From NCBI GenBank assembly GCA_019637875.1, contig JAHBUW010000006.1, positions 124,001-188,000 on the forward strand: a stretch of DNA of 64,000 nucleotides, given 5' to 3'. The first letter of the stretch is position 1. Each line of letters opens with the position of its first letter. Made by a program: the position numbers and the translations under genes. The notes under the pieces are model-generated. The model was not told the origin of the DNA, ran no database searches, and saw only the letters and a list, made by a program, of their open reading frames with translations. This document shows positions 2,402 to 46,587 of this stretch, one piece after another. The stretch comes from Pseudobdellovibrionaceae bacterium (GTDB taxonomy: Bacteria; Bdellovibrionota; Bdellovibrionia; Bdellovibrionales; Bdellovibrionaceae).

Positions 2402-2407
2402 TGACCT

Positions 2408-3628
2408 TTACTTTCCGGCCGCGACAGAGGCCAGATCGAAGATCGGCAAGTACATGCCCACGACCAAGAAAGCGATGACGCCTCCGAGAATGACCATGAG
2501 CAAAGGTTCGATCAACGAGGTCAGGGCCTTGACGGCGTTCTCGACGTCGTCTTCGTAGAAGTCGGCGATTTTACCAAGCATCTGGTCCATCGTTCCCGAC
2601 TTCTCACCGATCGCGATCATTTGCGTGACCATGTCCGGGATCATCGGCTCTTTCTGCAGGGGCGCCGCCAGCGGACGACCCGCGATCACGGAATCTTTAC
2701 TGCGGTAGAGCGCCTCTTCGATGACGGCGTTCCCCGACGTCTTCGCGGCGATGTCGAGCGCTTCGACCACGCTGACACCCGAGCTGAGGAGCGTCGACAG
2801 AGTGCGGGTCATGCGGGCGACCGAGGCCTTCTGGATCAGCTCTCCGAAAAGCGGCGCCTTGATCAGAAGGCGGTCCATGGTTTCACGGCCATCGGGCGTA
2901 CGGTAGTAATAGACCAGACCCACCGGAATTCCGATGACCACGCCGATCACGACGTACCAACGATGGATCACCGTATTCGACATCGCGATGATCATGTTGG
3001 TCACCGCCGGCAGCTCTTTACCCGCGCTGGAGTAGAGCTTTTGGAATTCCGGAATGATGAACACCAAGATCGCGGTGACCACGCAGATCGAGATCGCGAC
3101 GATCGCCATCGGGTAGGCCATCGCGCCTTTGATTTGCTTTTTCAATTTCTCGGATTTTTCGAGATAGATCGACATCCGGTTCAAGATGCCGTCAAGAATC
3201 CCGGCCTCTTCACCCGCGCGGACCATGTTGACGTAGAAACGATCGAACACCGTGGGATGCTGGGACATCGAATCGCCCAAGCGTTTACCGCCTTCGATCG
3301 AGTCTTTGATTTTAGCGGCGGTTTGTTTCAAGAGCGGATTCCGTTTTCCTTCGCTGAGGATTTTCAACGAATCGACGATCGGAATACCGGCGTTGATCAG
3401 CGTGGAAAACTGACGCGTGAAAATTTGCAGCTCTTTCGAATCCACGCGCGGCGAGAACAGGGAAGCTTGGGGTTGAGACTTCGAACCCCCGCCCGACTTC
3501 ACCAGGCGCAATGGAACGAGCTGTTTGGATTTAAGGCGTGATTGCGCTTCCGCTTCACTCGAAGCTTCGATCGCGCCGGTCGTCACCGTGCCGTTCGCCG
3601 CTTTTGCCTGGTAAATGTAACGAGCCAT
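2408..3628 (-). CDS. pilC: Type IV pilus inner-membrane platform protein PilC
   Basis: Polytopic inner-membrane protein around which the pilus extension and retraction ATPases act. The 406-residue product, starting MARYIYQAKA, is the normal length and has the duplicated type II secretion system F domain: one copy around residues 70-190 and a second around 275-400, with hydrophobic segments near 170-195, 215-240 and 375-400. An in-frame GTG at 3646 would add six residues, but the ATG at 3628 has a GGGAG site five bases upstream, which decides the start. It lies 46 bp downstream of the degenerate pilT-like gene and 6 bp upstream of pilS. Confidence 0.93.
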   Translation of the reverse strand: MARYIYQAKAANGTVTTGAIEASSEAEAQSRLKSKQLVPLRLVKSGGGSKSQPQASLFSPRVDSKELQIFTRQFSTLINAGIPIVDSLKILSEGKRNPLLKQTAAKIKDSIEGGKRLGDSMSQHPTVFDRFYVNMVRAGEEAGILDGILNRMSIYLEKSEKLKKQIKGAMAYPMAIVAISICVVTAILVFIIPEFQKLYSSAGKELPAVTNMIIAMSNTVIHRWYVVIGVVIGIPVGLVYYYRTPDGRETMDRLLIKAPLFGELIQKASVARMTRTLSTLLSSGVSVVEALDIAAKTSGNAVIEEALYRSKDSVIAGRPLAAPLQKEPMIPDMVTQMIAIGEKSGTMDQMLGKIADFYEDDVENAVKALTSLIEPLLMVILGGVIAFLVVGMYLPIFDLASVAAGK

Positions 3629-3674
3629 TCCCACTCCCTTGATCACTCAAGGACACCGGAAACGGCTCGCCTGC

Positions 3675-4709
3675 TTAAACGCCCACTTTTTTGAGAAGTT
3701 CGTCGAGTTCCAGCGGGTTGGGGGATTCATCGAATCCGGTCCGCAGCTCGATTTTTCTCTTCATGAGCAGTTGCAGGAGCGCCTGGTTCAGCGTCCTCAT
3801 GCCCGACTTATCGCCACCTTTGGCCATGACCTCAACTAGACCATGGACATTTCCTTGCGCGAGTTTCATTTTGATCTCGGGACTGTCGACCAGAAGCTCA
3901 AAAACCGGCTGCAGTCCGCCCTCCAGTCCCGGAATCAGACGCAGTCCGAAAGCGGCGACCAAGTTTTCGCCAATTAACTGCCAAATTCTTTCGGCGCTCG
4001 ACGTTCGCGCCGCTTCGGTCGCAAGCCCCATCACCGCCGACGGAATCGACTTCGCGGCGACACCCAGGTAAACGCAAAGCCCCTGCGCCGCCAGCTCCAA
4101 TGCCCGCGCACGCGCCTCGGGAAGTTCGCTGTCGATCACGATGAAACGCGAAAGCTGCGAAAGCCCCGTCATCTTCATGAGGGCCGAAGTCGGCAAAATC
4201 GGCAGCGACGCCTCGGAAGCAAACTCTTCATGATCGGCGAAAAACAGAACGGTTCCGTGCACCTCGACCAAAGTCTTCGCCCAAGCCTTGAGGAAACTCG
4301 ATTTGCCGGAATCGATGGGGCCGGTCACCAAAGTGAGGCCCGACTGACGTTGCATCTTCTCGGTCACGTAGGGCGGCAGGGCCCAACTCGCAAGCCCCGG
4401 CTCGGCCTCACTGTGCCAACTGAAACTGCCGACGAGGCCCGCTTCGTGAAGCAGATATTGAAAACGGATGGGACCACCCTGACCGCGCAAGTAACCATCA
4501 AGAACGCGATCCTGATCGAGCTGCTTCTTTTCCTCCGCGGAGAGCAGCGCCCAGATCGCGCCGCGCACGTCTTGCGCCGCGAGGGTCTGTCCGCCAAAGG
4601 GCACCCACTGACGCCCGTTTTTAAGCTCCATCGGATAGCCGGGAACAAGCCGAAGCCCGGTGCCGCCACGGTTTTGCGCATCGCGAATCAGTTCAACCAG
4701 AGTCTTCAT
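3675..4709 (-). CDS. Degenerate PilT-like ATPase domain protein
   Basis: Occupies the place of the pilus retraction ATPase between pilB and pilC and has PilT architecture over 344 residues, but most catalytic motifs are lost. Walker A survives in altered form as TGPIDSGKSS (129-138). The Asp box is replaced by an acidic stretch near 157-163. The Walker B region reads FIVIDSELPE (189-198), without the GE(M/I)RD glutamate. Where PilT has its His box there is no histidine (about 212-228). The C-terminal AIRNLIRE-like region is still recognisable (ELLVDSPEIKMKLAQG, 271-286). The reading frame is intact and in step with the operon, so it looks like a maintained pseudo-ATPase or regulator rather than a decaying gene. 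A true retraction ATPase may be encoded elsewhere. Confidence 0.8.
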   Translation of the reverse strand: MKTLVELIRDAQNRGGTGLRLVPGYPMELKNGRQWVPFGGQTLAAQDVRGAIWALLSAEEKKQLDQDRVLDGYLRGQGGPIRFQYLLHEAGLVGSFSWHSEAEPGLASWALPPYVTEKMQRQSGLTLVTGPIDSGKSSFLKAWAKTLVEVHGTVLFFADHEEFASEASLPILPTSALMKMTGLSQLSRFIVIDSELPEARARALELAAQGLCVYLGVAAKSIPSAVMGLATEAARTSSAERIWQLIGENLVAAFGLRLIPGLEGGLQPVFELLVDSPEIKMKLAQGNVHGLVEVMAKGGDKSGMRTLNQALLQLLMKRKIELRTGFDESPNPLELDELLKKVGV

Positions 4710-4730
4710 GTCAGGCGTCCCTTCCTACTT

Positions 4731-6425
4731 CTATTCCGAGTCGCGAACCGAGGCGTTCAACACCTCTTGGATCGACGTCTCGCCGCGCTTCAATTTCAGA
4801 AGCGCCGAACGACGAAGTGTCCGCATCCCCTCTTGTCGCGCGAGCGAGCGAAGCTGGGCGGCGGTCTCGCCCTTCAATACGGATTCTTTGATCTTATCTG
4901 ACATCACCATCAATTCAAAGATCGCAATACGACCTTTGATTCCGGTGTTGTTGCAAGTGTTGCATCCGCGACCGTGGAAGACCCGGTATTCCTTCACTTC
5001 CTTGGGTTCGACGCCCAAATCCAGAAGGACTTGTGGCGTGACATCCATTGGCGCTCTGCATGAATCGCAGATCCGGCCGACCAGACGCTGCGCCACGATG
5101 AGTTCGATCGTGGAGGTAACGACGAAGGGCGCGACGCCCATTTCCACGAGACGGGAAATGGTTTGGGGGGCGTCGTTGGTGTGAAGGGTGCTGACGACCA
5201 AGTGGCCCGTGCTCGCGGCTTTCGCGGCGATCTCGGCGGTTTCGAGGTCACGAATCTCTCCGACCATGATGATGTCGGGATCCTGACGAAGGAAGGTCCG
5301 CAGCGCGGCCGCGAACGTCAGACCGATATCGGAATTGACCTGAAGCTGGTTGATCCCTTCGAGGTTGAATTCGACCGGGTCTTCAGAGGTGGAGATATTC
5401 ACATCGGGCTGATTGAGTTCGTAGAGCGCCGAGTAGATGGTCGTCGTCTTTCCCGAACCCGTAGGACCGGTGATCAGCACCATGCCTTGAGGCATTTTGA
5501 TGATGTTTTTGAAGATCTCAAGATCCTCGGGCTCAAAACCGAGCTTCGTCATGTCGAGCTGCAAGTTCGATTTGTCGAGCAGACGGCAGACGACTTTTTC
5601 ACCCCAGATCGTCGGCATGACGCTGACCCGGAAGTCCATGTCCTTCCCGCCTTTGTAGCGGACTTTGATACGACCATCTTGCGGACGGCGTTTTTCGGCG
5701 ATGTCGAGCTTCGACATGATCTTCAAACGGGACGCGATGGCCGGTCCCGATCCCGAAGGCTGTGATGTCGCCTCGATCATGACGCCGTCGACCCGGTAAC
5801 GGACGCGAAATTTCTTTTCGTAAGGTTCGAAATGAATGTCGGACGCTTTCTTGCGGATCGCCTCCGACAAGATGGCGTTCACGAACTTGATGATCGGGCC
5901 CTCATCGCCATCGGCGGAGCTGTCGATCGACTCCGCGCCTTGCAAGATGATGTCGGGTTCGGCATCCATGTCATCTTCGACTTCTTTGACGATGTCGCGG
6001 ACGTTCGCGCCGAAATACTTGTCGATCGCGGACGCGATCCCGAGCTCCGAGGCCAAGACGACTTGGATTTTTCTTCTGGTCAGAAAACGCAGGTCATCGC
6101 GCACTTGAACTTGTCCCGGGTCCAACATCGCGACGACGAGTGTGGTGTCGCCGACTTTCTGGATCGGGATCAACATGTTCTTTTCGCAGTATTCGCGGTT
6201 CACGAGATCGGTCACGCCCTGCTGAACCTGGAAGGTGTTCAGATCGACCCCGGGAATCCCGTAGTGCTTTTCGAGGGCCTTCAGGATTTGGTTGTCCTTC
6301 ACGATGCCCTGCTGAACAAGGACCGTCGACAGGCGCTGTCCACCCTTACGTTGATCGTCCATCGCTTTGGACATTTGATCCGGACGGATCAGGCCTTGCT
6401 TCACTAAAATCTCGGCGAGCTTCAT
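4731..6425 (-). CDS. pilB: Type IV pilus extension ATPase PilB
   Basis: Hexameric cytoplasmic ATPase that powers pilin polymerisation. The 564-residue protein carries an N-terminal GspE/MshEN-type domain (about 1-140), a linker, and the GspE core: Walker A GPTGSGKTTT (320-329), Asp box SEDPVEF (347-353), Walker B with MVGEIRD (387-393), and the His box TGHLVVSTLHT (407-417). A zinc-type tetracysteine pair is present (C453, C456, C488, C491), as in PilB/GspE. All catalytic residues are intact, in contrast to the neighbouring PilT-like protein. The ATG at 6425 lacks a clear Shine-Dalgarno sequence. It is first of the pilus genes, 68 bp after the Rossmann-like gene on the same strand. Confidence 0.96.
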   Translation of the reverse strand: MKLAEILVKQGLIRPDQMSKAMDDQRKGGQRLSTVLVQQGIVKDNQILKALEKHYGIPGVDLNTFQVQQGVTDLVNREYCEKNMLIPIQKVGDTTLVVAMLDPGQVQVRDDLRFLTRRKIQVVLASELGIASAIDKYFGANVRDIVKEVEDDMDAEPDIILQGAESIDSSADGDEGPIIKFVNAILSEAIRKKASDIHFEPYEKKFRVRYRVDGVMIEATSQPSGSGPAIASRLKIMSKLDIAEKRRPQDGRIKVRYKGGKDMDFRVSVMPTIWGEKVVCRLLDKSNLQLDMTKLGFEPEDLEIFKNIIKMPQGMVLITGPTGSGKTTTIYSALYELNQPDVNISTSEDPVEFNLEGINQLQVNSDIGLTFAAALRTFLRQDPDIIMVGEIRDLETAEIAAKAASTGHLVVSTLHTNDAPQTISRLVEMGVAPFVVTSTIELIVAQRLVGRICDSCRAPMDVTPQVLLDLGVEPKEVKEYRVFHGRGCNTCNNTGIKGRIAIFELMVMSDKIKESVLKGETAAQLRSLARQEGMRTLRRSALLKLKRGETSIQEVLNASVRDSE

Positions 6426-32548: not shown

Positions 32549-33616
32549 ATGAATGGAAGCACCCAACGCGCACGGATGCGCGTCGCTTCAGGAGCGCTGA
32601 TGCTCGCGGGACTCATGCTGGTCATCACCGCTTGCGAGAAAGGCGACCGGAGCTACTCTCTGCTTTCAGATACGGAAGCCTTCCAGCAGAACGCGACCTA
32701 CGTTCCGCGCAAAATCGATGTCCTTTGGATCATCGATAACTCGGGCTCTATGAAGTCGAGTCAGGACAATCTGACCGCGAACTTCGCCTCCTTTATCAAT
32801 CGCTTCAAAGCACTCAATTACGACTTCCGCATGGGCGTCAATGCCACGGATGCATGGCTCGGACGCTACAATTCTTCACGGATCGGGCTGCGCCGCCTCA
32901 GGGATGGGGCGGGGTCCAGCCATAGCGGCGTGTTCGTGATGGATCGCAATACGGCCGACATCCAGAACGTGTTCATGGTGAACGCGACCCAAGGAATCAG
33001 CGGCTCGGGCGACGAACGCGCGTTCAGCTCGATCGAAGACACCCTCAATCATATCGACAACGCGGACTTCCGCCGCTCCGACGCTTACCTGGCCATCATC
33101 ATTCTGTCGGACGAGGACGACTTTTCGGCGACGACCTCGGCGCACCTGAACAACAACTACAATAGTTCGCGCCTGATCCCGGTCAGCTACTACAAGAACT
33201 ATCTCGACGGCAAAGTCGGCGCGGGCAACTGGTCGGTCAACGCGATCACGATCCTGGACGCCCAATGCCGCGACGATCTGAACGCGCAAAGCTCCGGCCG
33301 CATCATCGGTAAACGTTACGTCGAACTGTCGAAAGCGTCGGGCGGCGTGCAGACCTCGCTCTGCGGTGACTTCGGCGAAAGCCTGACTTTGATTTCGGAC
33401 CTTTTGATCGAAGTGTCGTCGAGCTTCAAACTCGACCGCGAGCCGATCCCCGCCTCGATTCGGGTGCTGGTCGACGGTCAAGCCGTCACCCAGAATGCCA
33501 CGAACGGTTGGGATTACGACCCCGCGACGATGACGGTCACCTTCCACGGATCGGCGGTTCCGGCGGCGGGACAAAAGGTCATGATCAGCTTCGATCCGCT
33601 GGCACCGAAAAACTAA
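32549..33616 (+). CDS. VWA-domain lipoprotein
   Basis: First gene of the envelope cluster. A roughly 355-residue lipoprotein: signal peptide with lipobox ITAC, then a von Willebrand factor A domain with the MIDAS motif DNSGS (in IIDNSGSM) and a later LSDEDDF acidic strand, and a C-terminal beta domain after residue 270 (IPASIRVLVDG). The ATG at 32549 has AAGGAGG four bases upstream, which beats an ATG at 32522. VWA domains bind protein partners through a divalent metal; here it could link the motor to the cell wall or a surface ligand. It lies 45 bp upstream of the TolQ-like gene. Confidence 0.8.
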   Translation: MNGSTQRARMRVASGALMLAGLMLVITACEKGDRSYSLLSDTEAFQQNATYVPRKIDVLWIIDNSGSMKSSQDNLTANFASFINRFKALNYDFRMGVNATDAWLGRYNSSRIGLRRLRDGAGSSHSGVFVMDRNTADIQNVFMVNATQGISGSGDERAFSSIEDTLNHIDNADFRRSDAYLAIIILSDEDDFSATTSAHLNNNYNSSRLIPVSYYKNYLDGKVGAGNWSVNAITILDAQCRDDLNAQSSGRIIGKRYVELSKASGGVQTSLCGDFGESLTLISDLLIEVSSSFKLDREPIPASIRVLVDGQAVTQNATNGWDYDPATMTVTFHGSAVPAAGQKVMISFDPLAPKN

Positions 33617-33661
33617 GTTTCCAAAGTATGGATGGACGTTTCTTACAAGGAGGATTTTGAG

Positions 33662-34285
33662 ATGGGCGCAGTATTACAGTTTATGAATGATTCGGGTATC
33701 GTGGGTTGGGCCATTTTGGGGATCGGTCTCGCGACTTTCGCGCTGATCGGCGAACGGGCCTACGCACTTTACTTCAAGGTTTCGCTGAAAGGCGACGACC
33801 TTTACAGCAAGATCCGCGGCCTCGTCTCGGCACGTAAAACCGACGAAGCCCTCGGCATCGTGCACGATCTCAACCAGAAACCCCTCGCATCGGCGTTCCG
33901 CACGATCCTGGAAAAAGCGGATCGCGATGACGACACGATTTTCCAAGCTCACGATATCGCGCTCGCCGAAAATATCCCGCAGCTGACGCGCCGGACGCAT
34001 TACCTGTCGATGCTCGCCAACGTCGCGACGCTGATGGGACTGCTCGGTACGATCCACGGTCTGATTCTTTCCTTCGCGGCGGTCGCGTCCGCCGATCCGA
34101 CGCAGAAGCAGGCGCTGCTCGCGCACGGGATCTCGGTTTCGATGTACACGACGGCGCTCGGCCTCGTGGTCGCGATTCCCGCGATGGTTTTCTACTCGTT
34201 CCTGATCAGCCGACAAAACTCGCTGGTCGATGAAATGACCGAAAAATGCGGCAAGCTCACGGAGCTGCTGACGAGCCACCACTAA
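33662..34285 (+). CDS. MotA/TolQ/ExbB-type proton channel protein (AglR-like)
   Basis: Inner-membrane stator component, 207 residues, with three TM helices: about 13-38, 115-142 (LMGLLGTIHGLI) and 156-183 (TTALGLVVAIPAMVFYSF). The size and layout match TolQ, ExbB and myxobacterial AglR. In TM3 the sequence reads GISVSMYTT; many ExbB/TolQ proteins have Glu at the position of V159, so a residue linked to proton flow is missing. The TM2 Thr (T130) and TM3 Thr pair (T163, T164) are kept. The ATG has AAGGAGG eight bases upstream. It should pair with the two TolR-like proteins encoded next. Confidence 0.87.
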   Translation: MGAVLQFMNDSGIVGWAILGIGLATFALIGERAYALYFKVSLKGDDLYSKIRGLVSARKTDEALGIVHDLNQKPLASAFRTILEKADRDDDTIFQAHDIALAENIPQLTRRTHYLSMLANVATLMGLLGTIHGLILSFAAVASADPTQKQALLAHGISVSMYTTALGLVVAIPAMVFYSFLISRQNSLVDEMTEKCGKLTELLTSHH

Positions 34286-34356
34286 GACGGTGCTGGGCCA
34301 ATCCTTCGCGGCGGGGACGACCGCGAAGGAATGAAAACTAACTTCAGGAGGATGGG

Positions 34357-34902
34357 ATGAGAGGCAAAAGATATACACCTCGCCGCGAGGCGAATCACGA
34401 ATTCGAACTGGATCTGGCACCGCTGCTGTCGGTGTTGGTCAAACTCGTACCGGTGCTGCTCATCTCGTCGGCCTTCGTACAGGTGATGACGATCGAAAGC
34501 GATCTTCCGGGCTCGCTCGCCAAAGCGGTCGAGCAAAGCCACGAGCAAAAAGTCCAAATCAAAATGGTCGCCGAGAACGATAAAGACGTCACCCTCGTGA
34601 TGACCATCGACGGTAAAAACGAGGAAGTTCAAATTCCCGCCAAAGAGGGCGTCATCGACTTCGAAGCCGTGCACGCGGGACTCGTCGAAATCAAAAAGCG
34701 TTACCCCGAAAGCTTCCACTTGATCCTCAAGGCTTCGGGCACCGTCACGTATCAAGAGACCGTTTCCTTGATGGACGAAGCCCGCAAGTCGAAAAGCGAA
34801 ACCGTGGAGTTCACTTACCGCGACAAAGAAAAACCCGATCAACCGCAGAAGACTCAGTGGATGTTCCCCGAAGTCATGATCGAACCGTCGGAGGCCACAT
34901 GA
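34357..34902 (+). CDS. TolR/ExbD-like protein 1, membrane Asp replaced by Ser
   Basis: A 181-residue protein with a short cytoplasmic N-terminus, one TM helix (about 18-45) and a periplasmic domain, the TolR/ExbD layout. The helix reads LAPLLSVLVKLVPVLL; TolR has PLLDVL, so the proton-carrying Asp of TolR (D23) or ExbD (D25) is Ser (S25) here. The downstream SDLPG aligns with VDLP of TolR, which supports the alignment. The periplasmic part is rich in charged residues. The start has AGGAGG upstream. It may act as an inactive partner for the second TolR-like protein. Confidence 0.83.
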   Translation: MRGKRYTPRREANHEFELDLAPLLSVLVKLVPVLLISSAFVQVMTIESDLPGSLAKAVEQSHEQKVQIKMVAENDKDVTLVMTIDGKNEEVQIPAKEGVIDFEAVHAGLVEIKKRYPESFHLILKASGTVTYQETVSLMDEARKSKSETVEFTYRDKEKPDQPQKTQWMFPEVMIEPSEAT

Positions 34903-35378
34903 GACGCTCTAGAAAACCCGCGCGCCGCGAATCGGGCACCTTCCCCCTGAATATCACCTCGATGTGCGACATGTTCACCCTGCTGCTGGTCTTCCTGCTG
35001 CAGACTTACGCCACCTCGGATTTCAACGTCGAGATGGACCCGACCACGAAGCTGCCGATGTCGAGTTCGATGAAAGAGCCCAAACGCGTCCCGCAAGTGT
35101 TGGTTTCCAAAGACGCGATCAAAATCGACGGCGTGGTCGTCGCGAAGCTCACCGACGGACGTCCGCAGGCGAGCGACCTGGATCCGCACAATCCCGCGCT
35201 CGTGAAACCCCTGTTCGAAGCGCTGAAAGGCAAAGCGCCGACCGAACCGTCGGTGAACGATGCGGTCATTTTGTCGGCGGACTCACGTCAGAACATGGCT
35301 TCGCTGGCCCCTTACCTCACGACCATTTCGGCCGCGGGTTTCGCCAAGGTGAAATTGGCGACCGTGCTCGGGCGCTAA
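34899..35378 (+). CDS. TolR/ExbD-like protein 2, membrane Asp present
   Basis: A 159-residue TolR/ExbD-type protein: basic N-terminus, one TM helix (about 17-40) with the key Asp at residue 24 in TSMCDMFTLLLVFLL, and a periplasmic domain ending near the C-terminus. This is the only member of the trio that keeps the expected proton-binding aspartate. The ATG overlaps the stop of TolR-like 1 (ATGA), so the two are made in fixed ratio. In Myxococcus, AglQ and AglS are likewise two TolR-type subunits partnered with AglR. Confidence 0.87.
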   Translation: MRRSRKPARRESGTFPLNITSMCDMFTLLLVFLLQTYATSDFNVEMDPTTKLPMSSSMKEPKRVPQVLVSKDAIKIDGVVVAKLTDGRPQASDLDPHNPALVKPLFEALKGKAPTEPSVNDAVILSADSRQNMASLAPYLTTISAAGFAKVKLATVLGR

Positions 35379-35388
35379 GGAGGATCGC

Positions 35389-38037
35389 ATGAAGACGTCG
35401 CGTTTCCTCCTTCCCCTGCTGCTTTTGACCTCGCCCGCTTTCGCGCAGAAAGAGATCGTCAAAGATCCCGTCGCGTCCGAAGCGCTCGTATCGATGAGCG
35501 AACAAAAAGCCATCGAGGCCTTGGAGCGCATTCTTGAAAAACGCCGCGGTTCGCCCGACGAGCCCGATCTGCTCGAGCGCTTGTCGGAACTTCACCTGAA
35601 GCAGGCGAAGTCCGTGCGTTTTTTCAATTTGAACCGCACAAACGACAAGAACCTGTCGCTGCTTCCGCCCGTCATCAAAGAAAAGGCCGCGCTGCGCCCG
35701 CTGAAAAAAGCGGTGGAGTGCTTCCAGCAGATCCAGACCAAGTCCCCGAAATACGCCCACGCGGATCGCGTGCACTTCCACAAAGCCCTGACCCTCGCGC
35801 AGATGGGCCTTTTCAAACCCTCGACCGTGGAAGTCGAAATGCTGCTGGCGAAGTATCCGAAATCGGAATGGCGTTCCGACGCGCACCTGCTGATCGGCGA
35901 AGTCTTCTACGACAGCCAACGCTATACCCAGGCCCTCAGCCATTTCAACGAAGCCGCGACCAGCGATAAAATCAAGATCTCGCACTACGCGCAGTACAAA
36001 GCGGCGTGGACCCTTTACAACCTGGAACGCAACGAAGACGCGATCGCGAAGCTCATGGGCTTGGTCAAAGCCGTCGATCCCGAAAAACCCGAAGGCTTCG
36101 CGTTACGGAGCGAATCGTTGCGGGACATCGCCCTGTACCTGACCGAAACCCGCGCCTCGAACGAAGCTTTCGACTTCTTCCAAAAGTTCACCACGCCCCA
36201 AGAAACGGCGGCGGGCCTTTACCGGATGGCGAACATCTACCGCTCGCACTCCAAACATAAAGACGCGCGCTTGATCGCGAACGAATACTTGAAACGCGGC
36301 ACCGACGAAACCGGCAAAATCCAGTTTCGCCTGCTGATGGCGAAGGACGCCAAAGAACGCAAAGATCCCACCGATCAGGTCGCGCACTTGAAAGCCGCCT
36401 ACGACCTGTGTTTGATCCAACCCGACGACGCCGAGGTCTGTAAACAGGACCTGCGCGTGCAGCTGACCGAATCGGCGGAAGACGCATGGAAATCGTGGGA
36501 AAAAACCAAAAATCCCGCGGCCCTGAAAGCCACCAAAGAGATTTTCGAGATCGAAATTCAGCGCAATCCCGATCCCCGCCCGAAAACGCTGGAGGCTTAC
36601 GCCGAACTGCTTTTCCAATCCGACGATTTCGAAAATGCCGCGCGGATTTACCGCGAACTGGTCGCGAAAACGAAAAATGATAAAACTCCCAAGGCGGACG
36701 CGAAACTCAAAGAAAAGGCCCTCGAGAAATACCAGTACGGAAGCCTCGTTTCTTTGGACCGCTGGATGGATCAGAACAAAAATGCCGTCCTCGCCCCCGA
36801 GTTTTATAAAGAAGAAGTTCTGGTCCACCTGAAGGACTTCCCGCAAACGCCCTTCAAGGCCGAGCTGCTCTTGCGTCTGGCGAACATCCAGTACGCCGAA
36901 ATGGATTTCGCGAAAGCCGAAGCCAACTTGCGCACCGTGCTCGCCACCAACGTCAAAGCGAAGGATGCCAAAGAAGATCCCCGCGTCCCCGCCGAGAACT
37001 TGCTTCTGGAAACGCTGAAAGCGCAGAACAAGACGGCCGAGTTCCGTAAAACTTTGGACGGCATCACCGAAAAAACGACCGACACGACCCGCAAAACCGA
37101 ACTGCGCCGCTTGGTCGCACAGCTGGAGCTCGAAAAACTCGAAACGGCCCCCACCGGGACCGATGGCGATGCGAAGAAGCTGAAGGAATATCTGGATTTC
37201 ATGCAGGCCTACAAAAACGACGTCAAAGTCACCGAGCCCGTCTACTGGAAGACGCTCGCGCTCGCGTTGACCATGAACGAAGACAAAGTCGCCTTCGAAC
37301 TGATCGAGCGTAAAGCCGACAGCAAAGACGTGCGTTTGTGGGACGGCCTGAAACAGATCCTGGTGCGTTTCGATAAGACGCCCGCCGCGAAACGCCCGGG
37401 CAGCGTCGAGCTTTTCGAAACCTCGCTGAAACGCGCGAACGGCAACGAGGTCGCCAAGATCCTGTGGACCTACCGCGAAAACCTGATCCAGTACAACGGC
37501 TCGCCCGCGCGCATCGCCGCACTGGAAAACGAGATTTTAAAACGCGGCATGGAGCCCGAAAAAAGCCTGATCCTGGTTTCCCGTCTGGAAAAGGATTTCG
37601 AAGCCGGCAAAGTCGAAAAGGTTTTCAACGAGTCGCGTGCCCTGGTCGCTTCCTCCAAACCCGCGATCGTGCGCGCCCGCGCGCGCCTGTTGCAAGCGCG
37701 CGTCCTGGAGCAAGAACTCCGTCGCCAGAGCGTGAAGAGCTCGCTGACCCGTTTGCAAATGGTCATCGGCATGAAACTCGAAAAACTCGGCAAAGCGCAA
37801 GAAGCCTTCATGTCCACGATCCAAATGGCGGGCCAAGACCCGGCAACATCCCGTGACGCCCGCGAAGGCCTGAAACGTTGTTTCCAGCACTCGATCGAGG
37901 CCCTGAAAGCCGTCGAGATCAAAGAAGAACTGAACGCTCAAGAGAAGAAATCCCTGGATGAACAGATGCAGAATCTGATCAGTCCGCTCGAGCTCCAATT
38001 GAAGGAGCTCATCGCATCGGAAGAGGTGAAGTCATGA
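35389..38037 (+). CDS. Large exported TPR protein (GltE-like position)
   Basis: An 882-residue periplasmic protein: signal peptide cut after SPAFA, then tetratricopeptide-type helical repeats through most of the length (for example HADRVHFHKALTLAQMGLF, then a repeat ending SHFNEA, and repeats around residues 220-320 and 410-520), with a Lys/Glu-rich middle and a helical C-terminus. There is no lipobox. The start has GGAGG in front, 10 bp after the TolR-like gene. Large periplasmic TPR proteins occur in the Glt machinery (GltE), where they link the motor to outer-membrane parts. That assignment is by context, not by sequence match. Confidence 0.82.
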   Translation: MKTSRFLLPLLLLTSPAFAQKEIVKDPVASEALVSMSEQKAIEALERILEKRRGSPDEPDLLERLSELHLKQAKSVRFFNLNRTNDKNLSLLPPVIKEKAALRPLKKAVECFQQIQTKSPKYAHADRVHFHKALTLAQMGLFKPSTVEVEMLLAKYPKSEWRSDAHLLIGEVFYDSQRYTQALSHFNEAATSDKIKISHYAQYKAAWTLYNLERNEDAIAKLMGLVKAVDPEKPEGFALRSESLRDIALYLTETRASNEAFDFFQKFTTPQETAAGLYRMANIYRSHSKHKDARLIANEYLKRGTDETGKIQFRLLMAKDAKERKDPTDQVAHLKAAYDLCLIQPDDAEVCKQDLRVQLTESAEDAWKSWEKTKNPAALKATKEIFEIEIQRNPDPRPKTLEAYAELLFQSDDFENAARIYRELVAKTKNDKTPKADAKLKEKALEKYQYGSLVSLDRWMDQNKNAVLAPEFYKEEVLVHLKDFPQTPFKAELLLRLANIQYAEMDFAKAEANLRTVLATNVKAKDAKEDPRVPAENLLLETLKAQNKTAEFRKTLDGITEKTTDTTRKTELRRLVAQLELEKLETAPTGTDGDAKKLKEYLDFMQAYKNDVKVTEPVYWKTLALALTMNEDKVAFELIERKADSKDVRLWDGLKQILVRFDKTPAAKRPGSVELFETSLKRANGNEVAKILWTYRENLIQYNGSPARIAALENEILKRGMEPEKSLILVSRLEKDFEAGKVEKVFNESRALVASSKPAIVRARARLLQARVLEQELRRQSVKSSLTRLQMVIGMKLEKLGKAQEAFMSTIQMAGQDPATSRDAREGLKRCFQHSIEALKAVEIKEELNAQEKKSLDEQMQNLISPLELQLKELIASEEVKS

Positions 38038-38333
38038 TGAAATTCACTGTCCTTATCACGTTGGTTTCGGTTTTCCTGGCACTGCCCGGCTACGCGCAGT
38101 TCAAAAAGGGCGCCGGCTCCGAAAAACGTTCGAAAGTCCAAGAGGTCAACTTCGAAGAGATGACCATGAAAGGGACGATTCGTAACCCCGAGGGCGCCTT
38201 CCTCGTGCAGAAGAAGAACCTGAAGTTCTTCCCGCTGTACGAAGTTCAGAAAGACATGGATGCCCGGATCCGCGGGAGTGAGCCCGACGAGATTCTGAAT
38301 ACCACAATGACCCGTACCCGGAGCGCGAAATGA
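38034..38333 (+). CDS. Small exported protein
   Basis: A 99-residue exported protein: a signal peptide cut after PGYA, then a charged mature part (about 78 residues) with no recognised domain. It begins with an ATGA overlap on the upstream TPR gene and its stop overlaps the next gene in the same way, so all three are translated together. A function in the envelope cluster follows from the coupling only. Confidence 0.75.
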   Translation: MMKFTVLITLVSVFLALPGYAQFKKGAGSEKRSKVQEVNFEEMTMKGTIRNPEGAFLVQKKNLKFFPLYEVQKDMDARIRGSEPDEILNTTMTRTRSAK

Positions 38334-39685
38334 ATCAGCTCTTCGTCACGCAAAAAGGCCAGGACGGCCGCGAAAAAATCTACCGTTTCGATCACGACCG
38401 CGAGCAGGTGGTCCTGGGCCACTCGCGTAAGGCCGATATCCGTCTGCCCAAAGCGATGTCGGAACACATCGAAGGCTGCATCCTTTTCGAAGATGGCGCG
38501 TGGACTTACCACTCGTTCAGTCTGAACGAAAAGGCGCCGATCCTGGTGCCGTTACGCGGGACCGGAAAATTCCGCATCGGTGAGTTCGTGTTCTCGACCG
38601 AAATCGTCGAGCAAAAGTCGATCTTCGACGACGCGCCGACCGAAGGCGAGCTGGGCGAGCAGATCGTCCTGTTCCATAACCGCGGTCACCTGTTCCACTC
38701 CGCTCGCGTTCAACCCGGCGAAACTTTGAACCTGGAACTCGCGGGCGAAAATATGTCCGTGAAGACCCAACCGTCACGCACGTGGATTTATGAAACCCAA
38801 GGCTCCTTCGAAATCCGCCAGAAAACCCTGGCCCGTCAGGGGGTCGCCGCCTACCTGAAGAGCTTGAAAGAGAGCTTCGAGACCTCGCGTCACGACAAAA
38901 TCGTGATGGCCTCGATCCTGGCGGTCTTCATGATCGGCGCGCTTTCGACGTCGTTCGTTAAAAAGACCTCGGTCGAAGTGGCGGCGGATGAAATTCCGAA
39001 ATCCTCGCAGCCCTTGGTCATGAAGCTCGTGCCTCCGACCGAGCGCCGCGCCCCCGAAGCCCCCGGCAAAAAGAACGAAAACCAAAACAACCGCGTGGCC
39101 CGCATCCAAGATCTTTCGCAATCCATCGCCGCCCGCGCCGGAAAATTCCTGAAGCGAGCGTCGCGGATGCCCGCCTCGATCGGCCCGAACGGCACGTTGA
39201 ACGCCCCCGCGATGGGCGTCGCGAATCTCGATGGACCGTCGACGGACTGGAATACTGCGGCCGGCACCAAAGTTTCGGGGCAAGTCGGCGGCTCGCTGGC
39301 GGGCGGGACCGGCGGCAACGCCCGTCTGGCCGGTAACGGCATCGGAACGTCCGGCGTGAATCTGCTGGATCAAGAATCCGAAGTCACCGGAGGACTCGAC
39401 CGTGAAGTGATCGCGGATTTCATCCGCCGCAACATCGGTCACATCCTGTACTGCTACGAACGCTCTTTGTCCGCGAACCCGAATCTGTTCGGGAAGGTGT
39501 CCGTCCGCTTCGTGATCGGGGCTTCGGGGAAAGTCGAAACGCAGAAGATCGGCGAATCGACCCTGAAAGACCAACGCGTCGAGGGCTGCATCCTGGACAA
39601 GGTCGCCCAGTGGAAGTTCCCGACGCCGAAAGGCGGGGTCCAAGTTTCGGTCAACTACCCGTTCCTGTTTAAGACGACGAATTAA
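38330..39685 (+). CDS. FHA-like / TM / TonB-C (AgmX-type) protein, GltG-like
   Basis: A 451-residue inner-membrane protein. N-terminus: an FHA-like domain (about 1-90) with VVLGHSRKADIRL and MSEH; the phosphothreonine-binding Arg of the GR motif is replaced by His (G30-H31), so phosphopeptide binding is doubtful. A second beta domain follows (110-165), one TM helix (about 188-210), a periplasmic Pro/Lys/Gly-rich linker, and a C-terminal AgmX/TonB-type domain (355-451) with two Cys (C375, C420) fit for a disulfide. This layout matches GltG/GltJ-type proteins of the myxobacterial gliding machine, which connect the motor to the outer membrane. Confidence 0.86.
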   Translation: MNQLFVTQKGQDGREKIYRFDHDREQVVLGHSRKADIRLPKAMSEHIEGCILFEDGAWTYHSFSLNEKAPILVPLRGTGKFRIGEFVFSTEIVEQKSIFDDAPTEGELGEQIVLFHNRGHLFHSARVQPGETLNLELAGENMSVKTQPSRTWIYETQGSFEIRQKTLARQGVAAYLKSLKESFETSRHDKIVMASILAVFMIGALSTSFVKKTSVEVAADEIPKSSQPLVMKLVPPTERRAPEAPGKKNENQNNRVARIQDLSQSIAARAGKFLKRASRMPASIGPNGTLNAPAMGVANLDGPSTDWNTAAGTKVSGQVGGSLAGGTGGNARLAGNGIGTSGVNLLDQESEVTGGLDREVIADFIRRNIGHILYCYERSLSANPNLFGKVSVRFVIGASGKVETQKIGESTLKDQRVEGCILDKVAQWKFPTPKGGVQVSVNYPFLFKTTN

Positions 39686-39738
39686 AAGAAAAGAATAAAA
39701 GGTCAGACACACACTTGAAAGAACATCGGAGGTTCTTC

Positions 39739-40494
39739 ATGCAGACGACAAAAACAATCCCCCACGCAATCAAAATTGGACTCTTGGCTTTGATGTGCGG
39801 AATTTCCACCCCGGCCTTCGCGCAAAATGCGGACTCGGACAAGGTGGACTTGAAAAAACTCGAAGAGAAATACTGGGCGGCGAAGGACAGCGACTATTCG
39901 GTGGTCCAAAACCGCACGTACACGAAAGCGAACCGCCCCTACATCTCACTTTCGTACGGCCCCCTCCTCAACGACAGCTACTCTACGGGCCGGATGACGA
40001 ACGCGGCCATTGGGTACTTCTTTAATGAGCGCTGGGGTGTCGAGTTCGCATACGAAAAAGGCGACTTAAAAGATAACGACGGCGTGACGAAATATCGCGA
40101 CCAGTACGGCGTGCAAGTCGACTATAATAAATTCGTGAGCAACAAATCTTTAAACGTCATCTTCGTTCCCCTCTACGCGAAAATGAGTTTCCTGGACACG
40201 TCGATCCTGTACTTCGACATGCAGTTCGCGGCGGGCATCGGACAAACGGAATATGAAGTCCAACGCAATATCGGCCCGGAAACGAAATCGGCGACCTCGT
40301 TCAACTTCGATATCACCCAGCAGTTGTTCTTCCACGAACACATCGCCCTGCGCTTGGACATCAAGAACAAGTGGTCCAGCCAGGATCGTCAGCGCTACCA
40401 GCTGAGCGGCAGCCAAACGGAGGCTGATCGCGGACTGCCCAACCTGAGCGCGCAGGATACGAGCATCCTGCTGGGCGTGACTTTCTTTTACTAA
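39739..40494 (+). CDS. Outer-membrane beta-barrel protein
   Basis: A 251-residue exported protein. The ATG at 39739 has GGAGG six bases upstream and begins a signal peptide (cut after TPAFA); a TTG at 39715 is a less likely start. The mature protein has a short N-terminal helical part, then alternating beta strands from YISLSYGPLL onward and a final strand TSILLGVTFFY, ending in the aromatic residue typical of outer-membrane proteins. It looks like the family of barrels found with AgmX and TPR proteins in myxobacteria. It lies 53 bp after the GltG-like gene and could be the outer-membrane part of the machine. Confidence 0.8.
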   Translation: MQTTKTIPHAIKIGLLALMCGISTPAFAQNADSDKVDLKKLEEKYWAAKDSDYSVVQNRTYTKANRPYISLSYGPLLNDSYSTGRMTNAAIGYFFNERWGVEFAYEKGDLKDNDGVTKYRDQYGVQVDYNKFVSNKSLNVIFVPLYAKMSFLDTSILYFDMQFAAGIGQTEYEVQRNIGPETKSATSFNFDITQQLFFHEHIALRLDIKNKWSSQDRQRYQLSGSQTEADRGLPNLSAQDTSILLGVTFFY

Positions 40495-40539
40495 TTAAGA
40501 ACCGGATATCAGAACTAAAGGCAGAAAAGGACTTTCGCC

Positions 40540-42573
40540 ATGAAAAGACAAAACCAGGTTCGCTACGCTCCCCTTATGCTCGCCGCCCTCGTCGGTAGCG
40601 CGAGCTTCGCGCAAGCCGCCGGCCCCACGAAAACCTCCGCTCCCGCGAAACGGATTGCGCGCGCGCCGCAGAACGCGGGCGGCAAGCCTGTCGTGATCCC
40701 GCGGCATCAACTGCCCAACGAAAAGAACTTCGAATTTCAGCATCGCCCGTCGGTGATTCCCGACGTGCCGGCGCGCTTTCAAGCGCCCGCGGCCCGTGGC
40801 GCACGTCCCGAGACTTCGCTGAAGGGTTTGGACATGAAACCCGAAGCGCCCGTCGCCCAACCCAAAGGCGCGGCGGCGTTTCAACTTCCGAAAGGGGCCA
40901 TGCCCGCATTGGGGGCCGAAGCCGTCCTGCAGCTCAAAGAGACGAACGATCAACTGAAAACCGTCGAGAGCTACACCGCCGACGAGCTTCGTTTGTTCGA
41001 AGCTTACGTCCTTCTGGAAGATCAGAAAAAACCGCTCCCCGCTTTGGGAAACTTCGCGACCTTGATGACGAAAAAGTCGGCGCTACAAGACTCGGCCCGC
41101 TGGGGTTACGCGCACGCGGCCCTCGCGCTCGGACTACGCGTCCAATATGAAGTGACGCTGCTGGAGTTCTTGAGTCGCGGAACCCCCGCATGGTCCACGC
41201 GTGCGACCGAAAGCCTGGTGCGCAACTCGGATATGGATAAATCGGTGTGGGTGCAACATTTAAGCGAAACGCAATTTGGGTCGCTCAAAGTCGAGGCCCC
41301 TTCGGACGCCTACCTGATGTTACGGGTCCACCGCCAAATCGCGCAGAAACAGGTCAAAGACGCGCTCGAAACTTTGAAACAGATCGCGCCGAACTCAAAG
41401 ATCTTCGGTCTGCGCGCGTATTTCGAGGCGCTGTTGGAATACCGTCAAGGCAGCCTCGCCCCCGCGAAGACCTCGCTCGCGACGGCGCTGAAACAGCACC
41501 CCGAAGCCTTCCGCGAAAACGAGATCAAAGCCAAAGCCAATATGCTTATGGGACGTTTGAGCTTCCAGAGCCGCGACTTCAACAACGCGTTCGAAGCCTA
41601 CCGGAACGTCCCGAAGAACAACCCCGTCTGGCCCGAAGCCATGATGGAGCAAGCCCTCAGCCAAATCCTTTATGAAGACTTCGAAGGCGCGGCGGGGAAT
41701 ATGTTCTCGCTGCATACGGACTTCTTCAAGAAGTCGTATTCGCCGGACAGTTACCTGATCCGTACGGTCGGCTACCTGAACCTGTGCCAGTACGCCGATG
41801 CCCTGCAGGTCGTGCAGGATCTGCAACGCAAATACAAACCGATTCTGGAAGGTCTTGAGCGATACGGAAAAGTCAAAGGCACGTCGGACTACGATACGAT
41901 CCGCGAGTTCGCGAAAAACCCGGGTGTCAGCGACGTCAAGGGTGTCGCCCGCCCGTTCCTGTTCGCCTGGACGCAAGATCCGGACTTCCAACGCCACCAG
42001 GTGCGCATCAACCAATTCGAAGACGAACTCGAGGCGTTCCGTGGCCTGTCGTTAACCGTGGTCAAGCAAGAGCGCGAACTCTCGAAAAAGATCGCCGAGG
42101 CTTCCGACGCCGTTTCTGCGGCCGTCGCCGCGAAAGCGGACGCCGAAAAAATGGCGAAGCTGAAAAACCAATTGGAATCCGCGAAAGTGGAATCGAAAAT
42201 GTTGCAGCTCGCGCGTAAGTCGCTCGCCCAGATCCGTCCCGAAATCACCGCGAAGCTGGAAGGATTGAAGGACGAACGTAAGGCCCTGGCCCTCGAGGCG
42301 CTTTCGCAGCGTCGCACGTCCCTGCACGGCGCGCTGAAAGGCGTGATCGATCAGTCGGAAGTTCTTTTGTACGAAATCTACAACGGCGCCGGCGATCACC
42401 TGCGCTTCCAAGCGGCGGGCGGCGAAATCGAAGCCCGTCGAACAGCAAGCCTCAATCCCAAGAAGGACGAGGCCGTGAATTGGAAGTTCAAAGGTGAAAT
42501 TTGGGAGGACGAGCTCGGACATTTCCGTTCATCGCTCTCGAACGTCTGCGCCAAAGAAACCGCTAGCAACTAA
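40540..42573 (+). CDS. Exported TPR / coiled-coil protein
   Basis: A 677-residue exported protein: signal peptide, a Pro/Ala/Lys-rich extended segment (25-120), a TPR-type helical region (about 135-420), a coiled-coil Lys/Glu/Ala-rich segment (490-590) and a C-terminal block with NWKFKGEIWEDELGHFRS and a Cys near the end. The start has AAGGA eight bases upstream. No enzyme motif is seen. Its partner is the next, coiled-coil, gene 22 bp downstream. It probably forms a periplasmic scaffold of the envelope machine. Confidence 0.8.
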   Translation: MKRQNQVRYAPLMLAALVGSASFAQAAGPTKTSAPAKRIARAPQNAGGKPVVIPRHQLPNEKNFEFQHRPSVIPDVPARFQAPAARGARPETSLKGLDMKPEAPVAQPKGAAAFQLPKGAMPALGAEAVLQLKETNDQLKTVESYTADELRLFEAYVLLEDQKKPLPALGNFATLMTKKSALQDSARWGYAHAALALGLRVQYEVTLLEFLSRGTPAWSTRATESLVRNSDMDKSVWVQHLSETQFGSLKVEAPSDAYLMLRVHRQIAQKQVKDALETLKQIAPNSKIFGLRAYFEALLEYRQGSLAPAKTSLATALKQHPEAFRENEIKAKANMLMGRLSFQSRDFNNAFEAYRNVPKNNPVWPEAMMEQALSQILYEDFEGAAGNMFSLHTDFFKKSYSPDSYLIRTVGYLNLCQYADALQVVQDLQRKYKPILEGLERYGKVKGTSDYDTIREFAKNPGVSDVKGVARPFLFAWTQDPDFQRHQVRINQFEDELEAFRGLSLTVVKQERELSKKIAEASDAVSAAVAAKADAEKMAKLKNQLESAKVESKMLQLARKSLAQIRPEITAKLEGLKDERKALALEALSQRRTSLHGALKGVIDQSEVLLYEIYNGAGDHLRFQAAGGEIEARRTASLNPKKDEAVNWKFKGEIWEDELGHFRSSLSNVCAKETASN

Positions 42574-42595
42574 GATCTAAGGAAGGATCAAACAC

Positions 42596-43252
42596 ATGAA
42601 CTCGCATCAATTACTTCAACGTCTTGCCCTGTTCGCCGCCGTCAACGCTTTTGCCGCCTCACTCGCGTGGGCGCAAAGCTCCAGCCCCGAAGTCTTCAGC
42701 CGCGTCGAGAAGAACATCGAAAACGCGAAGGCCAACCGCGAAGACAACGCGCGTAACCTCGGGGTCGTGACCGAAAATCTCGGCCAAGTGGGACGCGCGC
42801 GCGGCAGCGTGCAGGCCGACATGACCAAACTTAAAGGCGAAATCGCCGTGAACCAGAAAACCACGGGCGAAATCGAAAAGTCCCTGGATCAATTCAAGAA
42901 GAGCGAAGAGGCCGAAAAGAAAGCCATCGCCGCCGAGGAACGGAAAATCCAAGAGCTCGAAAAAGCCGCCCAGCTGCTGCGCGACTCGATCGACAAACGC
43001 CGCACGAACCTGACCCAAATCACGAGCGAACGTGAAAAGGTCGGCGCGGCCCACGCCGAGTGGAAATCGCGGGGCGACCAGCTCATGAAACTCCAAGCCG
43101 AAGCCAAAGTCCGCGACGACCGCTTGGCCGGCGAAGAAAAAGAGTGGCGCGGCAAGAAATCGCGCTACGAAAAAGACTCGGCGAAGTGGGATAAGGCTTT
43201 GACCGAACAAGAAACCGTGAAGAAAAACTTAGCTTCCCTCAAGGGCGGTTAA
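42596..43252 (+). CDS. Exported coiled-coil protein
   Basis: A 218-residue exported protein with a signal peptide (core LALFAAVNAFAASLAWA) and an almost wholly helical mature part rich in Glu, Lys and Ala with heptad spacing, so a long periplasmic coiled coil. No lipobox, no catalytic motif. AAGGA lies upstream. It is the last gene of the cluster: a strong terminator begins 13 bp after its stop. Confidence 0.78.
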   Translation: MNSHQLLQRLALFAAVNAFAASLAWAQSSSPEVFSRVEKNIENAKANREDNARNLGVVTENLGQVGRARGSVQADMTKLKGEIAVNQKTTGEIEKSLDQFKKSEEAEKKAIAAEERKIQELEKAAQLLRDSIDKRRTNLTQITSEREKVGAAHAEWKSRGDQLMKLQAEAKVRDDRLAGEEKEWRGKKSRYEKDSAKWDKALTEQETVKKNLASLKGG

Positions 43253-43264
43253 GCGTCGAGGCGG

Positions 43265-43295
43265 GCGCGGGTGAACGGACCCGCGCTTAGCTTTT
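43265..43295 (+). terminator. Rho-independent terminator of the envelope cluster
   Basis: The stem GCGCGGGT pairs with ACCCGCGC around a six-base loop (43265-43286), followed by TTAGCTTTT. It marks the 3' end of the ten-gene plus-strand cluster; no comparable hairpin is seen inside it. Confidence 0.8.
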
Positions 43296-46230: not shown

Positions 46231-46587
46231 TTAAACTTCGCTTTCGGCGCGGTTGGTGACGAAGTTGCGGATCTCGCGTTTGCGCTCGAAAACCAGATTC
46301 TCGAAAGCGCAGCCGTAGACGACCTCGCCGGGATGCGTGTCGGCCAGCACTTCGGTATTCCGAATTTCGGCGCGGACGCTGATGAACTCCCCTTCAGGAA
46401 CCTGGAAATTCAAGACGACCAGTGCGCCCATCCGGATGACCTTTTCCGAGCGGAAGGAAAGCCCGCCCTCACCGATTTCAAAACCGGTGGTCATGAAGTA
46501 CTTGCCGCCCGATAAAACGCCGATGGAGCGTTTGAAGCGACGACGGGGGAACTTGCGGCGGTAGATGTGCGCGTTCGTGTTTTCCAT
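46231..46587 (-). CDS. PilZ-like domain protein, partly degenerate
   Basis: A 118-residue single-domain protein. The arginine-rich loop RRKFPRRRFKR resembles the first cyclic di-GMP motif RxxxR, but the second motif, (D/N)xSxxG, reads EIGEGG, with Asp/Asn and Ser missing. The beta-rich fold (GVLSGGKYF, ALVVLNFQVP, ISVRAEI, YGCAFENL) fits PilZ. It may therefore be a non-binding PilZ relative, or bind the nucleotide differently. It lies 39 bp after holA and 5 bp before the TPR gene. Confidence 0.75.
   Translation of the reverse strand: MENTNAHIYRRKFPRRRFKRSIGVLSGGKYFMTTGFEIGEGGLSFRSEKVIRMGALVVLNFQVPEGEFISVRAEIRNTEVLADTHPGEVVYGCAFENLVFERKREIRNFVTNRAESEV

Follow-up and report, generated by a model that had tools for sequence, protein, structure and literature searches.

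A conserved Agl-Glt-family operon with a predicted integral MIDAS adhesin and a TolR-type protein lacking the canonical membrane aspartate in a Pseudobdellovibrionaceae bacterium

The DNA analyzed here (the window) is a stretch of 64,000 nucleotides from a Pseudobdellovibrionaceae bacterium (contig JAHBUW010000006.1, positions 124,001 to 188,000). An operon of ten genes, all on the forward strand, was located at positions 32549-43252 (Table 1), and ATGA overlaps joined its genes at three junctions (34899-34902, 38034-38037, and 38330-38333). Both the ten same-strand reading frames and the overlaps had been described in an earlier reading of the letters (the sequence-only reading), and all of them were recovered at these coordinates. 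The same reading had closed the cluster with one strong terminator. A GC-rich hairpin does follow the last gene and is succeeded by TTAGCTTTT, but it was not picked up by a consensus terminator scan and its stretch folded no better than its own shuffles (z -0.2). The operon was preceded, on its own strand, by a MazG-type gene and followed by a convergent MurJ-type gene, both named by reading the sequence. A stand-alone PilZ-domain protein was encoded about 3 kb beyond the 3' side of the operon (46231-46587, minus strand; Pfam 1.1e-10). At the other end of the window (749-6425, minus strand), PilC-like, PilT-like, and PilB-like genes were recognized by eye as parts of a type IV pilus or type II secretion system; genes for a response regulator and a sensor-like protein adjoined them.

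Table 1. Genes and features of the operon, with the evidence for each assignment
Feature	Position	Strand	Evidence
VWA/MIDAS lipoprotein, 355 aa, predicted outer-membrane surface adhesin, orthologue of Bd1483	32549-33616	+	lipobox, MIDAS, NF052240, CglD, model
AglR/TolQ-type proton-channel subunit, 207 aa	33662-34285	+	MotA_ExbB 3.1e-26
TolR1, ExbD/TolR-type axle protein without canonical TM Asp	34357-34902	+	ExbD 3.9e-15
TolR2, ExbD/TolR-type axle protein with TM Asp (Asp24)	34899-35378	+	ExbD 4.6e-13
GltD-like exported TPR protein, 882 aa	35389-38037	+	TPR matches
GltF/CglF-like small exported protein, 99 aa	38034-38333	+	NF033764 2.1e-5; position conserved
GltG-like protein, 451 aa	38330-39685	+	NF033760 9.3e-35 over C-terminal part; myxo_SS_tail 3.7e-32; TonB_C 1.3e-4
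Outer-membrane beta-barrel, GltA/B/H-like, 251 aa	39739-40494	+	TIGR04565 OMP_myx_plus 7.4e-20; OMP_b-brl 4.6e-7
GltC-like exported TPR/coiled-coil protein, 677 aa	40540-42573	+	NF033756 4.1e-28; orthologues to 5.8e-109
Exported coiled-coil protein, last gene, 218 aa	42596-43252	+	generic coiled-coil matches only; position conserved
GC-rich hairpin, possible terminator, weak T tract	43265-43286	+	3' of last gene, sequence reading

Nine of the ten proteins matched known Agl-Glt parts or domains, the tenth being the coiled-coil protein. Significant matches to families of Myxococcus gliding, to Bdellovibrio MIDAS families, or to a myxobacterial outer-membrane protein domain were obtained for five proteins (VWA, GltF-like, GltG-like, and GltC-like proteins and the barrel). 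The OMP_myx_plus match of the barrel was above the family cut-off. Apart from the barrel and the tail of the GltG-like protein, the gliding-family matches fell below the equivalog cut-offs, as is expected for a paralogue outside the Myxococcota. The model of the GltG-like protein contained a TM helix and a long disordered linker in addition to an FHA fold and a TonB-type C-terminal domain, the latter two with fold matches. The domain calls of the sequence-only reading were upheld by the Pfam and NCBIfam profiles and by the FHA and TonB C-terminal folds of this model.

A MotA/TolQ/ExbB-type channel gene followed by two ExbD/TolR-type genes was identified by Pfam, in an order that is conserved, and was accompanied by GltC-, GltF-, and GltG-type proteins and a GltA/B/H-type barrel. 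On this gene content, the operon is securely classed as a predicted Agl-Glt-family, proton-channel-powered, envelope-spanning gene cluster, and the family named at first sight is borne out by the profile matches (Glt families, MotA_ExbB, and ExbD) and the kept gene order. A bona fide energizer of Tol-Pal or Ton transport is very improbable. Although the TolQ and ExbB equivalogs were the best named matches of the channel (1.3e-17 and 8e-15), these matches lay far under their cut-offs (64 of 221 bits and 55 of 206), no pal, tolB, or TonB-dependent receptor gene was found in the operon with Pfam and NCBIfam profiles, and TolB (C2:222863) was located beside the genome's best TolQ-type match (C2:221033), separate from the operon. 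A Tol-Pal or Ton identity, which the sequence-only reading had named as the outcome that would speak against it, was already contradicted by these data and was rejected on the equivalog scores and the location of TolB; the profile search proposed with that reading matched Glt-type families instead.

The same genome contained at least five clusters that combine TolQ-TolR-TolR with Glt-type genes (the window, C9:37-50 kb, C9:116-130 kb, C16, and C7), and MglA was also found (66% identity). In a tree of TolQ plus TolR2, the window-type rows formed one fully supported clade (100). The Myxococcus AglRQS rows, recognized by the Asp at residue 28 of the AglQ-type protein (D28 of PMC3858216), fell outside it and grouped with the Bd0828-type and two other clusters. 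The same view of Bd0828-0838 as AglRQS-related was reached by Luciano et al. (PMC3169522). The likeness to the Agl-Glt motor that was noted earlier is therefore not to be taken as orthology to AglRQS: by this phylogeny, the window cluster is a paralogue of the Myxococcus gliding motor and an orthologue of Bd1473-1483. It shares with the Myxococcus machine a channel with two TolR-type proteins, the GltC, GltD, GltF, and GltG types, an outer-membrane protein, and VWA lipoproteins in the pathway (CglB and CglD), whereas the two motors are non-orthologous, the TM Asp present in both Myxococcus TolR-type proteins is replaced by Ser25 in TolR1 of the window, and the Myxococcus adhesin genes lie apart from the other gliding genes (PMC4488436), unlike in the window operon.

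The closest AglRQS-Glt relative in the genome was a separate stretch (C9:37000-49500; L075, L246) encoding an outer-membrane protein, GltC, GltD, a GltE lipoprotein, GltF, an FHA-type GltG, AglR, and two TolR proteins with the Asp. This Bd0828-0838-type cluster has the same kinds of parts as the window operon (GltG 1.3e-67, GltC 1.9e-53, CglF 3.5e-9), but it is nearer to AglRQS, has its GltE lipoprotein as a separate gene, keeps the Asp in both TolR proteins, and no VWA gene was seen in the stretch. One relative, presumably B. exovorus JSS, demonstrated a Bd0828-type motor only, among the motors found.

Conservation was surveyed with the best VWA match and its flanks among the 60 genomes nearest to this one, plus this genome itself. 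The VWA gene was found directly upstream of the TolQ-TolR-TolR-GltD-GltF-GltG-OMP-GltC-coiled-coil series in 28 other Bdellovibrionaceae genomes, with some clusters cut by contig ends, and the best VWA match was unlinked to the cluster in three genomes (G003, G007, and G008). Retention of this order in about 28 further genomes shows that the cluster is not a chance arrangement, and the co-occurrence across relatives proposed as a check by the sequence-only reading was observed. In one relative (L088, genome G036), which we take to be Bdellovibrio bacteriovorus HD100, the cluster lies at 1.39-1.40 Mb, where the Bd1473-1483 gene numbers would fall. Bd1473-1483 is one of four agl operons of Bdellovibrio with differing expression (PMC2797640), and PMC2277423 gives the name aglR to Bd1481 and places Bd1483 in the gliding cluster. 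The cluster type is therefore already known, and the related clusters that the sequence-only reading had mentioned for Bdellovibrio include this very type. The ten genes are shared with HD100 in the same order, VWA first, and the motors of the two fall in one monophyletic clade.

HD100 differs from the window in that its VWA and TolQ genes are separated by one of the GYF_2-PilZ type and its GltD and GltE are fused into a single protein (1247 aa). The GYF_2-PilZ gene occupied this position in most relatives (such as L091:4817-5395, with PilZ 1.7e-10 and GYF_2 1.1e-9, and L115:4944-5546), and none was present between VWA and TolQ in the window. Its presence in the relatives suggests that the motor may be under c-di-GMP control there. 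GltD and a second TPR protein of about 310 aa are encoded by two genes in other families, and the Bdellovibrionaceae have one fused GltD-GltE protein of about 1240 aa. The GltD-like protein of the window stops at the GltD/GltE junction (HD100 residue 984) without the GltE-like C-terminal part of about 260 aa. Neither the customary GYF_2-PilZ gene nor this GltE-like domain is present in the operon of this genus. No GltE-like part was found in the operon, and a single search of the genome, run without a positive control, was empty; a different GltE-like lipoprotein is present in the C9 cluster.

The VWA protein demonstrated the features of a MIDAS-family adhesin, including a lipobox (ITAC) with Cys29 and a MIDAS (D63-x-S65-x-S67), both invariant in 26 aligned homologues, downstream acidic MIDAS residues, and a VWA fold. 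It matched the MIDAS adhesin family NF052240 (8.8e-16) and CglD (5.9e-10). A sequence search of solved structures gave no match, and the best match of the model (pLDDT 87.6) was the integrin beta I and hybrid region, the MIDAS/VWA domain being inserted into a second beta domain in the manner of integrin beta subunits. The model agrees with the L-shaped two-domain architecture of Bd0875 and Bd1483 given in PMC11003981, where Bd1483, the known counterpart of the VWA protein, is also reported in a surface secretome. The Bd0875 adhesin is alike in having a lipobox and a MIDAS in a second beta domain, but the window protein scores 58 bits against the NF052240 cut-off of 700, so that the superfamily is shared and the equivalog is not. 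A metal-binding type of lipoprotein, as proposed earlier, is predicted from the lipobox and the invariant MIDAS residues. Its description as an unusual extra component did not hold up, as three of the five clusters in the genome carry such a lipoprotein, Bd1483 is known, and Myxococcus gliding itself involves the VWA lipoproteins CglB and CglD (PMC4488436).

The slot before TolQ was filled by a different VWA subtype in families f2, f3, f5, f6, and f9; on the f3 contig, this subtype sat before the GltD-type gene and no TolQ was found there. Its relative in the genome under study was an orphan (C3:339476), and the window's own subtype likewise stood apart from the cluster, as an orphan, in the order's other families. 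One f4 genome (G058) had three tandem VWA genes, copies of the window's subtype, after the Glt cluster (L121:8379-12524) and none preceding it. The simplest reading of these arrangements, given a VWA subtype tree whose long branches make its details unsure, would be that the machine was conserved and the surface head exchanged. Such an exchange of subtypes within the slot speaks for the VWA protein being a working part.

The sequence of TolR1 (EFELDLAPLLSVLVKLVPVLL) has Ser25 at the canonical TM Asp site, together with Asp19 and Lys29, and this lack of the proton-carrying Asp had no place in the sequence-only reading. The register was set by a profile comparison with structurally solved TolR and ExbD proteins, which placed the essential Asp at Ser25 and the Asn at -6 at Asp19. 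In the 55 window-type TolR1 rows, Asp at -6 was combined with Ala, Ser, or Gly at 0 in 42, and the other 13 kept Asp at 0 and had Asn or Ser at -6; no row was mixed. HD100 TolR1 is alike in this respect (canonical Asp lost to Ala, Asp at -6, Lys at +4). Lys at +4 was found in 28 of 28 family rows, and the TM Asp of TolR2 was retained in 83 of 83 rows. The other TolR1-type rows (paralogues in this genome, HD100, Myxococcus, and other classes of the phylum) retained the canonical Asp with the sole exception of L308 (G084), which has Asn at both the canonical and the -6 sites and represents a separate loss outside the window-type clade. The TolR2 proteins of four distant-family clusters (L298, L299, L301, and L309) carry Asp at both sites; the -6 Asp can therefore coexist with the canonical one.

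Four changes were the fewest needed on the 83-row tree. The 42 rows as a single clade were not rejected (p-AU 0.225), and Fisher's p of 7e-13 for the -6/0 swap therefore overstates independence given shared ancestry. The TolR1 swap may represent two to four changes, and the perfect swap one or two events. The invariant periplasmic residues of TolR1 were kept in the alignment, so the protein is not decaying; within-family mean identity was 46% for TolR1 versus 48% for TolR2. In TolQ, the two channel Thr of the family were invariant.

The residue pattern suggests that the working axle may be a TolR1-TolR2 heterodimer with one canonical proton site (TolR2 Asp24). In models of MotAB and ExbBD, two Asp are protonated in turn and the axle turns 36 degrees per proton (PMC12215075, PMC9389320). 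In the heterodimer, TolR2 Asp24 would be the only canonical proton carrier, and TolR1 Asp19 would be relocated near the cytoplasmic end of the helix; if the 5:2 rotary model applies, each subunit passage (72 degrees) would involve a single canonical proton step, versus two alternating sites (36 degrees). We tentatively propose a natural asymmetric ion motor of the 5:2 type, with an obligate TolR1-TolR2 heterodimer, one canonical Asp, the other carboxylate shifted six residues cytoplasm-ward, and stepping that would be coarser or directional within a machine that moves an adhesin. No report of a one-Asp axle of such motors was found in the openly accessible papers searched.

It is also possible, rather than probable, that TolR1 conducts no protons and has a regulatory or wall-anchoring role, its missing Asp simply mirroring a release from proton transport, with TolR2 homodimers as the axle; TolR1 could then be accessory. 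The invariant Asp of TolR2 would fit such an axle, as would a TolR1 that lacks the canonical Asp yet conserves its periplasmic residues. Mere loss, however, would not predict Asp at -6 in 42 of 42 rows lacking the canonical Asp and 0 of 13 keeping it, nor Lys at +4 fixed in 28 of 28 family members. The two TolR1 states are also distinguished by TolQ and TolR2 sites adjoining the ion path, a comparison confounded by shared ancestry.

For the machine as a whole, we consider it probable that the operon encodes an Agl-Glt-family force machine, with a putative heterodimer axle and a predicted MIDAS adhesin, that drives gliding or holding on. In the membrane topology and force path that we infer, the AglR-type channel and the two TolR-type axle proteins would lie in the inner membrane, and proton flow through TolQ-TolR would turn or strain the axle. 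The GltG-like and GltD-, GltF-, and GltC-like proteins would carry force across the wall to the outer-membrane barrel, which would display or move the MIDAS adhesin, and the adhesin, if exposed at the surface as predicted, would grip a surface or prey so that the cell glides, possibly through the one-site mechanism, or holds on. Biofilm predation was weakened by a transposon insertion in either Bd1481 (aglR) or Bd1483 (PMC2277423); the Bd1483 phenotype may be polar on aglR, and a clean bd1483 deletion left prey invasion normal (PMC11003981). Expression of Bd1476-1481 falls after prey entry (PMC2797640) and therefore fits an attack-phase role.

Family membership does not give function, since Myxococcus motility does not depend on the paralogues M2, G4, and G5, and G3 (Nfs) has its role in sporulation (PMC3169522). 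A machine of the Nfs or Ton kind, which would move polysaccharide, lipoprotein, or a large substrate along the outer membrane or across it instead of moving the cell, and in which the VWA protein would hold the substrate or serve as an envelope anchor, is unlikely but has points in its favor: the Nfs paralogue of Glt acts in spore coat assembly with AglRQS (PMC3858216), the AglRQS orthologue of this genome is another cluster, and not all of the five clusters here, or of the four differently expressed operons in Bdellovibrio (PMC2797640), can be the gliding motor. Such a machine is at odds with a first gene encoding a MIDAS lipoprotein with an integrin-like head, with the surface secretome entry of Bd1483 (PMC11003981), and with attack-phase expression, and no obvious export or glycan gene was seen in or beside the operon.

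The data indicate that the operon is real, conserved, and of the Agl-Glt family, and that a predicted adhesin is integral to it. What is new here, as read from the alignments, is the loss of the canonical TolR1 Asp and its apparent relocation, and the interest of the locus rests on the putative asymmetric axle. A 2026 review describes the gliding motor, adhesins, and force path of Bdellovibrio as unidentified (PMC13104615), and in this operon the genes for a motor, for transducers, and for an integrin-like adhesin are kept together as one conserved unit. A motor review states that the pairing of AglQ and AglS, as homodimers or as heterodimers, is not known (PMC9389320); the natural loss of one axle Asp makes this question testable by simple mutants. 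If one site suffices, models that require two alternating sites must change.
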